23,198 nt of DNA from positions 1 through 23,198 of the IMG/VR virus record IMGVR_UViG_3300010150_000185. One strand, written 5' to 3'. Shown here in pieces: positions 1 to 8,790 of this stretch. The stretch comes from a virus. Position numbers and translations under genes: made by a program. The notes beneath the pieces were generated by a model. It did no database searches, was not told the DNA's origin, and saw nothing but the letters and a program-made list of their open reading frames with translations. Positions within the stretch are counted from its first letter, which is position 1. Each line of letters begins with the position of its first letter.

Positions 1-273
1 CTGCTCGCGGCTGTCGCTAGTCGCGGTGAAGACGCGGTTTTGATAGTAGGTTTCCGTTACGGATACGGGAGCGATTGCCAGCACTACATATTTAGTCTCA
101 GTGCCGCGAGCGTATAGCTCAATCTCTTGGTAGCCAGCCATGTGATACTCCACATAGTTGCTAGCAGTCTCGCCGCCCTCGCGCCATGTTCGCTCTTCGC
201 CAGTGCTGATCGTGCCGATCTTGCGGTACTTGCGCCGCTCGTTGCCGTAACCATATTCGATAGTCTTAGTCAT
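1..273 (-). CDS. Unknown early protein, truncated by window edge
   Basis: The reading frame opens with ATG at 273-271 and runs 91 codons to base 1 with no stop, so the C-terminus lies outside the window. The start is well supported: a very strong Shine-Dalgarno (TAGGAGGG) sits 7 bases upstream, behind its own promoter. The N-terminus is basic and polar (MTKTIEYGYGNERRKYRK), followed by a glutamate- and tyrosine-rich stretch and a short hydrophobic strand (YVVLAIAPVSV). There is no signal peptide, membrane segment or motif I recognise. It sits directly downstream of the antirestriction-like gene and carries the same promoter/leader cassette, so it is probably also expressed early. Function is unknown; a host-takeover or anti-defence role is possible from position only. 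Confidence 0.75.
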   Translation of the reverse strand, partial: MTKTIEYGYGNERRKYRKIGTISTGEERTWREGGETASNYVEYHMAGYQEIELYARGTETKYVVLAIAPVSVTETYYQNRVFTATSDSREQ

Positions 274-280
274 TTGATTG

Positions 281-311
281 CCCTCCTACAGGCGTTGTCT
301 CAGTTGACGCC
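281..311 (-). promoter_or_regulatory. Leader hairpin plus conserved CCTGTAGGAGGG ribosome-binding site
   Basis: Downstream of P1 the mRNA begins with a small hairpin, GGCGT (311-307) pairing with ACGCC (295-291), that runs directly into CCTGTAGGAGGG (292-281). The same 12-mer, also preceded by a hairpin, occurs at 1236-1225 and 8327-8316. Confidence 0.55.
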
Positions 312-345
312 CCCAAAGTTACAGCATTATTTGGGGAACGTCAAC
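303..345. repeat. Imperfect inverted repeat overlapping promoter P1
   Basis: GTTGACG-C-CCCCAAA (303-317) is repeated inverted at 345-330 as GTTGACG-TT-CCCCAAA, around a 12-base centre. The arms cover the -35 box on one side and reach the -10 box and start site on the other, as expected of an operator. In a read-through transcript from the ArdC-like gene it would also fold as a stem of two 7-bp blocks with a small internal loop. No T-tract follows, so it is not a standard terminator. Confidence 0.55.
316..344 (-). promoter_or_regulatory. Sigma70-type promoter P1
   Basis: On the minus strand the -35 box is TTGACG (344-339) and the -10 box TAACTT (321-316), with a 17-base spacer. It lies in the 80-base gap between the ArdC-like gene and the truncated left-end gene. 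The bases upstream (ACAAAAGTG) match those upstream of promoter P2. The -10 is a weak match to consensus, so the promoter may need activation. Confidence 0.6.
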
Positions 346-353
346 ACTTTTGT

Positions 354-1217
354 TTAGGCTGCTTCTGCCTTATTTTCTGGGGTTTGCAGGTCATCCAGTA
401 AGTCGGATGCCTGCTGGGCCAGCTTCGCCGCCTTGTAGATCGCTCGCTTGTCATTCTGGAGCGCCTTGAGCCAAGACTTGATGTACTGAGCGTGATCCTT
501 ACGGGGCAGGTTCTCAATGCCCAGATCAGCGCAGAGAAACGTGGCGGTCAACTCAGCAACCAACTCTTCAAAGGCGTAGCTTTCTGAACCAAAGCCACCT
601 GACAAGTCGCGCTCGCATCGTGACTTGTGACCAGTCCAGTGGCCCAACTCATGAAGCGCAGTCCCGTAGTATGCCTGAGTAGATTTGAAAGCCTCTACCG
701 GGGGAAGCTGGATGTGGTCAAGCGCAGGGCTGTAGCAAGCGCGGTCACCGCCGTGTTGGATGTGAGCGCCAGTGTTACCGATAAACTCTTCGGCGTTGGC
801 GAGTCGCTCTGCCAGCGCGAGAGGCTCTGCCTCTACCTGCGCCTCGACGCCATCTACTTGCTCGGCGTTGAAGACCCACCACAGTCTGCTAAAGGGGATG
901 GTCTTGATCTTGCCAGTCTTCTCATCTTTCTCTTCGATGAAGTTAAACAGGATGATCGGCGTACCCTTCTCCCCCTTGCGTACCTGACCGCCCTCTTTCT
1001 TCCAAGCGTTATAAGTACCCCAGCGGCTATCGCAATAGGGCTGAGTCATCAGGATAAAACGGTTGATGCCGTTATAGTGATTGCCAGTAGACATTGACAC
1101 TGGGCGAGCGCCGCCAAGGTTGATCCACGGCTTTTGCCAGCAACCCAAGTCGACAGACTCTAACTGAGAGATAACGTGCTTGGTAATGGCCTCGTAAGCG
1201 TCAGCTTTCTTTTTCAT
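354..1217 (-). CDS. ArdC-like antirestriction protein (ssDNA-binding domain plus zinc metallopeptidase-like domain)
   Basis: This 287-residue protein has the two-part layout of the ArdC/TraC family. An N-terminal DUF1738-type ssDNA-binding domain spans roughly residues 5-125 and shows the usual pattern of W27, the RPVS and YNGIN segments, W66 and the KKEGGQVRKGEKG loop. A C-terminal metallopeptidase-like domain (about 140-270) has the HELGH zinc motif at 189-193, followed by WTGH and the EELVAE segment at 217-222 that carries the third ligand. In plasmids ArdC protects incoming DNA from type I restriction and binds single strands. Here it is most simply an early anti-defence gene protecting injected phage DNA. 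It has its own promoter and a strong RBS 6 bases before the ATG, separate from the replication operon. The zinc motif is intact, so peptidase activity is possible but unproven. Confidence 0.85.
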   Translation of the reverse strand: MKKKADAYEAITKHVISQLESVDLGCWQKPWINLGGARPVSMSTGNHYNGINRFILMTQPYCDSRWGTYNAWKKEGGQVRKGEKGTPIILFNFIEEKDEKTGKIKTIPFSRLWWVFNAEQVDGVEAQVEAEPLALAERLANAEEFIGNTGAHIQHGGDRACYSPALDHIQLPPVEAFKSTQAYYGTALHELGHWTGHKSRCERDLSGGFGSESYAFEELVAELTATFLCADLGIENLPRKDHAQYIKSWLKALQNDKRAIYKAAKLAQQASDLLDDLQTPENKAEAA

Positions 1218-1224
1218 GTTGAAT

Positions 1225-1256
1225 CCCTCCTACAGGAAGCTGGCAACAGCGCCAGC
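1225..1256 (-). promoter_or_regulatory. Leader hairpin plus conserved CCTGTAGGAGGG ribosome-binding site
   Basis: The predicted start site of P2 is near 1260. A perfect 6-bp hairpin follows 4 bases later: GCTGGC (1256-1251), loop GCTGTT, GCCAGC (1244-1239). Two bases further on is CCTGTAGGAGGG (1236-1225), then the ArdC-like ATG at 1217. A hairpin at the 5' end of an mRNA commonly protects it from decay, and the SD is close to ideal. Confidence 0.6.
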
Positions 1257-1266
1257 GATGGGATCA

Positions 1267-1295
1267 AAGATACGCCCTTATTAAGCTAACGTCAA
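1267..1295 (-). promoter_or_regulatory. Sigma70-type promoter P2 for the ArdC-like gene
   Basis: The -35 box TTGACG (1295-1290) and -10 box TATCTT (1272-1267) are separated by 17 bases, in the 94-base gap upstream of the ArdC-like gene. The 20 bases 1288-1307 match 337-356 at 19 positions, so this promoter and P1 share the -35 box and its upstream flank. Confidence 0.7.
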
Positions 1296-1311
1296 CACTT
1301 CTGTTTACACT

Positions 1312-5914: not shown

Positions 5915-5935
5915 CAGTTACGCTGGGCTTTTTTT
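5912..5935 (+). terminator. Intrinsic terminator on the plus strand
   Basis: A perfect 6-bp stem GCCCAG/CTGGGC with a 5-base loop (TTACG) is followed on the plus strand by seven T. On the minus strand the same hairpin is preceded by seven A and has no T-tract, so it works as a terminator only for plus-strand transcription. No plus-strand gene is visible, which makes its purpose unclear: it may stop antisense transcripts entering the early operon. Confidence 0.65.
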
Positions 5936-6131
5936 ATTCCTCGCGCATGAACTCGGATACTTTCATATCCAAAGCCTCGCAAGCCCTAACCACAGTTGTC
6001 AGCTTCAGGTCATCCTGCATCCGCCACCTGTGAATCTGTTGAGGCGCTTTCTCCAAACGCCTCGCCAACTCAGCAGAAGTTATCCCCCTGCTCTCTTGTG
6101 CTTCTTTAAGAAGCGTACCTGCATTAATCAA
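5934..6131 (-). CDS. Cro/XRE-type HTH regulator
   Basis: A 65-residue single-domain helix-turn-helix protein. Residues 5-60 follow the five-helix XRE pattern: LLKEAQESRGI, TSAELARRLEK (helix 2), APQQIHRWRM (recognition helix), LTTVVRACEALDMKVSEFM. Proteins this small act as dimeric repressors at phage operators. The start is probably TTG at 6131, overlapping the upstream stop as TTGA, with AGAGGA 9 bases before it; no in-frame ATG exists nearby. It sits inside the replication operon, so it may tune early expression late in infection. The inverted repeat at P1 is a candidate target, but nothing in the sequence links them. Confidence 0.8.
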   Translation of the reverse strand: MINAGTLLKEAQESRGITSAELARRLEKAPQQIHRWRMQDDLKLTTVVRACEALDMKVSEFMREE

Positions 6132-8087: not shown

Positions 8088-8309
8088 TTATCCTCTTTTT
8101 GATTTGAATGGTGTGAAGTACCGCTCTTGACTGAGAGGCATACGCTTTCGCTCGCCAGTAGCAAACCTGACGTGCATCCACTTGCGTCCGCGCTTCTCTA
8201 TCCATGCGACCACTGAACCGTAGTCACCATGAAACCAGCAGGGCTGAAAGCCCCGATTGATAACCTTGCGATAAGTCCAAAAAAACTTTGGCTTGAGTGT
8301 GCTTGTCAT
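8088..8309 (-). CDS. First gene of the early operon, unknown protein
   Basis: A 73-residue very basic protein rich in aromatics (FFWTYRKVINRGFQPCWFHGDYGSVVAWIEKRGRKW, described here in two parts, residues 9-27 and 28-44) with a beta-strand-like pattern ending in RKRMPLSQERYF. It has its own promoter and the strong TAGGAGGG SD 6 bases before the ATG, so it is probably among the earliest and most strongly made phage proteins. Small basic early proteins of this kind often bind nucleic acid or a host enzyme, but no family is recognised here. Confidence 0.75.
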   Translation of the reverse strand: MTSTLKPKFFWTYRKVINRGFQPCWFHGDYGSVVAWIEKRGRKWMHVRFATGERKRMPLSQERYFTPFKSKRG

Positions 8310-8315
8310 ATTTAT

Positions 8316-8347
8316 CCCTCCTACAGGACAGAGCCATTTATTAGCTC
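8316..8347 (-). promoter_or_regulatory. Leader hairpin plus conserved CCTGTAGGAGGG ribosome-binding site
   Basis: From a predicted start near 8350 the message begins almost at once with GAGC (8347-8344) pairing GCTC (8334-8331), a weak 4-bp stem with a 9-base loop, then three bases and CCTGTAGGAGGG (8327-8316). Start codon at 8309. Same layout as the P1 and P2 leaders. Confidence 0.5.
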
Positions 8348-8356
8348 ATGGGACAA

Positions 8357-8386
8357 ATATTAACACGACTACACTTATGATGTCAA
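8357..8386 (-). promoter_or_regulatory. Sigma70-type promoter P3 for the early operon
   Basis: The -35 box is a perfect TTGACA (8386-8381). The best -10 is TAATAT (8362-8357) at an 18-base spacing. The upstream flank ACAAAAGGG resembles that of P1 and P2. It lies in the 121-base gap between the lysis and early genes and is the only promoter visible for the whole 8309-1312 operon. I see no terminator for the late transcript in this gap. Confidence 0.7.
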
Positions 8387-8430
8387 CCCTTTTGTGTTCT
8401 CGGGTTTTTGTTCGCTTAGATGTTTTGACT

Positions 8431-8790
8431 TCAGTATGACCAGATGGTGGGGCTAGGTAGCTCATCGCACCAGTCGAGATGAATGAACCTGCCTTCGCCT
8501 CTCTGGTTTATACCTATGCGGGGAACGTCATAGTACATCGCTACCTTTAGTAGCTTGTGCGCTTTCTCATGCGACACGGCAAGATCAACTGCCATGCCAA
8601 AGCTATGCGCACCTATGTGTCCTTTGTGCCTTTCGGCGGGGTGATCAAGACAACGGTATCCGCTAGTGACGATCAGCGGCTCTCCGTATGACATTCTTAT
8701 TCTGTTTAACTTGGCGAGTGCGTCAGGGTCAAACTTGTAGACACCGCACCCACACTTACAGCGCAGTTCATCTTCTGAAAAATAATTCAC
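8431..8790 (-). CDS. Endolysin, M15-family peptidoglycan peptidase
   Basis: The 119-residue protein is a single Peptidase_M15_3 domain. The N-terminus has the FSEDELRCKCGCG segment typical of these phage enzymes, then SGYRC (43-47), the zinc motif H62-SFGMAV-D69, and the third ligand in RFIHLDW (H104). It should cut peptide bonds in peptidoglycan (D,D- or L,D-carboxypeptidase/endopeptidase type). It has no signal peptide, so release depends on the adjacent holin. The start is GTG at 8790 overlapping the holin stop (GTGA). It is the last late gene before the early promoter gap. Confidence 0.9.
   Translation of the reverse strand: MNYFSEDELRCKCGCGVYKFDPDALAKLNRIRMSYGEPLIVTSGYRCLDHPAERHKGHIGAHSFGMAVDLAVSHEKAHKLLKVAMYYDVPRIGINQRGEGRFIHLDWCDELPSPTIWSY

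Follow-up and report, generated by a model that had tools for sequence, protein, structure and literature searches.

In phage T4, the ribosome-binding sites of genes e, soc, 49 and I-TevI are closed in long early RNA and open in RNA from the late promoter, which sits inside the 5′ arm of the inhibitory helix (PMC3014915, PMC2988022). Stem-loops at the 5′ terminus are an established means of stabilising bacterial and phage mRNAs (PMC3997798). On plasmid p576, EGeRS2 is a short repeated region whose strong promoter and leader inverted repeats stand ahead of ardC and of genes that can be exchanged; it has TTATCCC dual-motif operators and a ribbon-helix-helix (RHH) repressor (PMC8708921). The SAS/ESAS elements of cluster K mycobacteriophages carry GGGATAGGAGCCC in 11-19 copies, with a 17-bp repeat of one consensus (PMC3203893).

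Here we describe a start region found before three genes of a marine phage record (IMGVR_UViG_3300010150_000185; the 23,198 nucleotides analysed are called the window). We tentatively propose, at a little short of an even chance, that it represents three copies of a start cassette in which translation is tied to the gene's own promoter and shut in read-through RNA.

A 12-mer repeated before three genes

Nearly all genes of the window lie on the minus strand, in the order structural and lysis genes, an early/replication operon headed by early73, ardC and a left-end gene (Table 1); in the relative L031, the terminase lies further on after the left-end gene. Family and structure searches returned no known family for early73 and no match for the left-end gene, which is truncated in the window, as a preliminary description of this DNA had noted, but whole in L031.

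The 12-mer CCTGTAGGAGGG occurs exactly three times in the window, always on the minus strand, 6 nt from the ATG of early73 and 7 nt from those of ardC and the left-end gene; a search that tolerated two mismatches found one more site, unrelated and on the plus strand, where 1.4 were expected. All three copies follow, as first described, a TTGAC promoter; its spacing between -35 and -10 is 17 bp in each case. The accompanying statement that no other gene carries the 12-mer holds within the window, while near relatives have just two or three copies. Beyond an assumed AGGAGG core of the Shine-Dalgarno (SD) sequence, six more bases are identical in all three copies; by our arithmetic this agreement has a chance of about 4^-12, and shared descent or selection is needed to account for it. 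The UTRs of early73 and ardC are related (p 0.002), and a region upstream of the -35 is common to ardC and the left-end gene (p 0.0005). RNA starts were predicted at 7-8 nt after the -10. The left-gene promoter also holds a 15-nt inverted repeat, GTTGACGttCCCCAAA..TTTGGGGgCGTCAAC, largely retained in the relative L005, which folds at -29 kcal/mol in read-through RNA (z -2.7), leaves the pairing of the left-gene SD unaffected and could be an operator or a structure of the read-through RNA.

Table 1 Positions of the genes, leaders and paired segments discussed in the text.
Feature	Positions	Strand	Description
left-end gene (third-leader cargo)	1-273	-	cut by window end; 163 aa, complete in L031
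left-gene leader	271-353	-	-35 TTGACG 339-344; -10 TAACTT 316-321; stem GGCGT/ACGCC in 291-311; 12-mer 281-292; ATG 271-273
15-nt inverted repeat	303-345		left-gene promoter, -35 to about +7
ardC	354-1217	-	287 aa; ArdC N-terminal domain and zincin-like metallopeptidase; anti-restriction family; PF08401 and PF18818; phrog_7245, E 5e-86
ardC leader	1215-1304	-	-35 TTGACG 1290-1295; -10 TATCTT 1267-1272; hairpin GCTGGC-N6-GCCAGC 1239-1256; 12-mer 1225-1236; ATG 1215-1217
ardC outer pairing	1219-1268	-	TTGATCCC (5′ arm in 1260-1268) with GGGAT(t)CAA (3′ arm 1219-1227)
Cro/C1-type HTH protein	5934-6131		regulator within operon
early73	8088-8309	-	73 aa, basic; first gene of early/replication operon
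early73 leader	8307-8395	-	-35 TTGACA 8381-8386; -10 TTAATA 8359-8364; hairpin GAGCTA/TGGCTC 8331-8347; 12-mer 8316-8327; ATG 8307-8309
early73 outer pairing	8308-8360	-	ATATTTGTCCC 8350-8360 (overlaps -10 and discriminator) with GGGATAAATAT 8308-8318 (SD to start codon)
endolysin	8431-8790		lysis gene upstream of early73

Leader hairpins and their background frequency

From the predicted +1 to the SD, the leaders of early73 and ardC form 5′ hairpins of -6.8 and -11.8 kcal/mol, each at p 0.009 against dinucleotide shuffles. The left-gene stem, for which pairing of the SD region is a competing fold, is not better than shuffles over the same interval (p 0.31), so that all three hairpins originally claimed, GGCGT/ACGCC, GCTGGC/GCCAGC and GAGC/GCTC, are present as stems but only those of early73 and ardC go beyond chance; combined, the three leaders give a Fisher p of 0.0017. 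The stems are 4-6 bp long, differ in each leader and stand between conserved flanks. Changes between orthologous leaders fall in loops or preserve pairing (in ardC, GCCAGC becomes GCCAGT, with a G-U pair). A search of Rfam up to E=1 gave no match for the leaders. On another branch, the early promoters of L134, L147 and L151 have a 5′ hairpin with pairing-preserving changes of its own (GGUUGCG/CGCAGCC versus GGUUGA/UCAGCC).

The comparison set comprised places in IMG/VR that match AAAAGTGTTGAC-leader-GGAGG-ATG (more than 119 in unrelated phages). Of 74 leaders that follow a similar promoter in unrelated phages, 31% had a significant 5′-UTR hairpin (p<0.05), as against 7% of 81 intra-operon SDs from operons of this phage group (Fisher exact p 0.0002). 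With hairpins this frequent in unrelated leaders, the succession of promoter, hairpin and SD is not peculiar to the three genes but a common phage design. Findings of this kind are best read with that background in mind: short leaders at phage promoters have hairpins several times as often as intra-operon starts. As a family-specific element, AAAAGTGTTGAC was rejected on the number of these matches.

Predicted pairing between the promoter and the ribosome site

A second, outer pairing, which the preliminary description did not include, was found between the -10/+1 stretch and the ribosome site. An inverted-repeat search detected a nearly perfect repeat of 11 nt at early73, with one arm in the -10/discriminator and the other in the SD-start region; the bases between -10 and +1 complement the ribosome site and the start codon (ATATTTGTCCC/GGGATAAATATG, p 0.004). 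Complementarity of this kind recurs at most of the related early promoters. The corresponding pairing of ardC in relatives, TTGATCCC/GGGATCAA, is a perfect 8 bp in L004 and L005 and has a one-base bulge in the window.

Duplexes of positions -16 to -1 with the ribosome site reached -13.4 kcal/mol for early73 of the window (p 0.004), -11.8 for ardC of L005 (p 0.061), and -11.2, -11.0 and -10.6 kcal/mol in L007, L012 and L155, respectively; by the same test the outer pairing is not present in L150, L134 and L147. The 81 unrelated leaders averaged -3.1 kcal/mol, with none at or below -11 and none with p<0.05. Over six early promoters the duplex test gave a Fisher p of 0.0006 (0.009 without the window), values that belong to a pairing first noticed during exploration, some of the tested promoters being those that had suggested it.

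Promoter RNA and read-through RNA were folded separately, and closure was tested against shuffled upstream sequence. In the predicted folds, the ribosome sites of early73 and ardC are sequestered in the read-through form, that of ardC weakly in the window. As thermodynamic predictions of effect size, the unpaired state of the ribosome site falls from 0.63 in promoter RNA to 0.08 in read-through RNA for early73 of the window (p 0.007), and from 0.73 to 0.09 in L012 (p 0.007); in L005, closure was predicted for ardC (p 0.033; 0.33 unpaired in read-through RNA) and for early73 (p 0.040). With its bulge, ardC of the window is weak (closure p 0.13, duplex p 0.39), and the left gene of the window shows no closure (0.50 to 0.49). 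Each of the eight outer pairs is possible in every one of five leader variants, window ardC having a single bulged base, and one two-sided change replaces U-A at early73 by G-C at ardC; covariation counts for the outer stem, from five related rows only, do not beat shuffling (62/500). An RNA start 4-6 nt earlier than predicted would put the 5′ arm in the primary transcript too.

Conservation of the leaders and exchange of cargo

The exact 12-mer is present in the near relatives 3300009124_000038, 3300021958_000492, 3300021964_001485, 3300025085_001078 and 3300021959_002275, and it is retained only in near relatives (helicase identity at least about 96%). L007, L008 and L009 keep early73 at 78-81% identity and have neither the 12-mer nor a separate 5′ hairpin, which is the situation that the preliminary description had named as refuting its proposal. 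Here early73 of L008 and L009 has a different leader, with TTCCTACGGAGGGAATG, and this leader precedes another gene in L007: leader retained, cargo different. Where ArdC is 40-50% identical, the leader before it is unrelated, and the idea of an ArdC-linked leader in other phages was rejected on that result.

The third leader in L005 precedes a 283-aa gene without similarity to the 163-aa gene of the window and L031, and in L004, where ardC runs straight into the next gene, third leader and cargo are both missing. A leader whose cargo is swapped in one relative and whose slot is empty in another marks leader and cargo as a removable unit; by these sequence comparisons the pair behaves as a swappable cassette, as would be expected if it is functional. 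The earlier suggestion that selection maintains a shared leader design is thus borne out in part: the layout, the strong translation signals, hairpins at two of three leaders and a leader that outlives its cargo agree with it, but the design is not kept in L007-L009 or at 40-50% ArdC identity.

Several further observations were made on related contigs. The 283-aa cargo protein of L005 (12800-13651) is a member of phrog_4750/4265, families with no assigned function, and has low-identity matches in about 490 phage records. On contig 3300009124_000038 (L004 versus L006), early73 stands at each end, with about 36.5 kb between the copies, the next gene being 66% and 84% identical to that of the window; on its sequence, the contig is a circular genome with an overlap mixing two strains. 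The viral contigs L019, L022 and L026 have a common leader ending CCTGTAGGAGGGTAAAATGAATGAG, which contains the same 12-mer and has no evident hairpin, and in L136 (2482) another gene after the exonuclease gene has its SD set in AUACC-UUGGAG-GGUAU, together with a promoter. A portal search of genome contigs for host-indicating prophages found none.

Proposed mechanism and alternative explanations

From sequence, conservation, predicted folds and statistics we infer start sites, RNA stability, translation effects and timing as follows. The cassette would serve genes that need strong early expression from their own host sigma-70 promoter: the replication operon with early73 first, anti-restriction ardC and a swappable accessory gene. 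Promoter-started RNA would carry a leader of 35-45 nt consisting of a short hairpin close to or at the 5′ terminus, which should slow 5′-end-dependent decay, an SD inside CCUGUAGGAGGG, and the AUG. The DNA between -10 and +1 appears to encode the complement of SD, spacer and AUG, for early73 and, most clearly in relatives, for ardC. Own-promoter RNA would start after the 5′ arm, not upstream of TTTGTCCC/TTTGATCCC, leaving the ribosome site open, whereas RNA reading through from upstream genes (the lysis genes in the case of early73) would carry the arm and keep the site closed. Later read-through RNA would then leave translation of the cassette genes off.

If the outer pairing works in this way, translation would be conditional on the source promoter without a protein regulator, which would account for how early genes, those for anti-restriction factors among them, could be switched off when read-through transcripts come to prevail later. 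The wider generalisation, that a marine phage family has early-promoter discriminators antisense to the genes' own ribosome sites, so that early genes, one of them for anti-restriction, could be translated from own-promoter RNA alone and would stay silent in late read-through RNA, with a cassette that moves before new cargo, is rather unlikely as a whole. A discriminator complementary to SD and start codon nevertheless provides a simple computable signature to look for in other phages.

A serious competitor, to which we give a somewhat doubtful but substantial chance, is that the leaders do no more than drive strong expression: a sigma-70 promoter, a 5′ hairpin that stabilises the RNA and a strong SD would have been copied together through duplication or recombination, and the pairing of discriminator and ribosome site would be incidental. 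The excess of 5′-UTR hairpins in unrelated leaders over intra-operon SDs, the established stabilisation by 5′ structure (PMC3997798) and the relatedness of the early73 and ardC UTRs and of the ardC and left-gene upstream regions all agree with it; against it, several independent relatives have discriminator-ribosome-site duplex energies beyond those of the 81 unrelated leaders.

It is improbable that the three leaders form the regulon of one phage protein, either the Cro/C1-type protein or an RNA-binding protein acting on the SD hairpin CCU-GUAGGA-GGG. The element ACANAAGKGTTGAC is common to all three promoters, an HTH protein is encoded in the window, related early promoters have ACAC-N6-GTGT palindromes between -35 and -10, and the ardC regulon of p576 offers a precedent (PMC8708921); against this, AAAAGTGTTGAC is generic, the palindrome AACA-N4-TGTT is broken at early73, and the SD hairpins rank at just p 0.01-0.16 among ordinary SDs. 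As a shared operator, AACA-N4-TGTT overlaps the -35 at two of the three promoters (ardC and the left gene, not early73), and as a CsrA-like site the SD hairpin does not surpass many ordinary SDs, nor did a CsrA-like gene stand out in the ORF list of the window. With no single shared DNA operator or RNA-binding regulator found at the three leaders, the early idea of a target for one regulator is not sustained. The ACAC-N6-GTGT-type palindrome was located in early promoters of L007 (8046), L012 (6973), L138 (3467), L150 (4986) and L155 (1585); judged by its position and sequence, it is likely a repressor operator in these related phages, and the window promoter is without one.

Very improbable, finally, is chance or mere common descent, in which a recently duplicated leader persists functionless in a small phage cluster: the 12-mer is confined to near-identical relatives, but two leaders have significant hairpins, stems differ yet are complementary at the same position, the leader is retained on cargo change and the outer pairing occurs in relatives.

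Comparison with known systems

In appearance, the closest described elements are SAS/ESAS of cluster K, which likewise place a short identical SD sequence before several starts, some with upstream inverted repeats. They differ in sequence and number, GGGATAGGAGCCC in 11-19 copies versus CCTGTAGGAGGG in two or three, and 17-bp inverted repeats of one consensus were not found at these leaders, where the stems of 4-6 bp differ from one another. Going by sequence, the phage leader is not the same element.

In biological logic, EGeRS2 of the conjugative plasmid p576 and its relatives is closest, with its repeated promoter region before ardC and exchangeable cargo. The dual TTATCCC motif was not seen in the three promoter sequences read, and no gene for an RHH repressor was found, the operon regulator being an HTH protein. 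The leaders resemble stabilising 5′ stem-loops (PMC3997798) in having a short hairpin ahead of the SD, close to or at the predicted 5′ terminus; early73 and ardC each have one within a few nt of that terminus and beyond chance, and greater stability would be the expected consequence.

The T4 e/soc type shares the 5′ arm that overlaps the gene's own promoter; the starts predicted 7-8 nt after the -10 would fall inside or after this arm and would give an own-promoter RNA without it. Pairing of SD and start codon in the long RNA is predicted for early73 (0.08 unpaired) and ardC of L005 (0.33), weakly for ardC of the window and not for the left gene. T4 uses a late promoter for late genes, whereas the present arrangement, as predicted from folds, would use host sigma-70-like promoters for early genes. 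If true, the cassette would be the late-gene logic of T4 reversed and built into the promoters.
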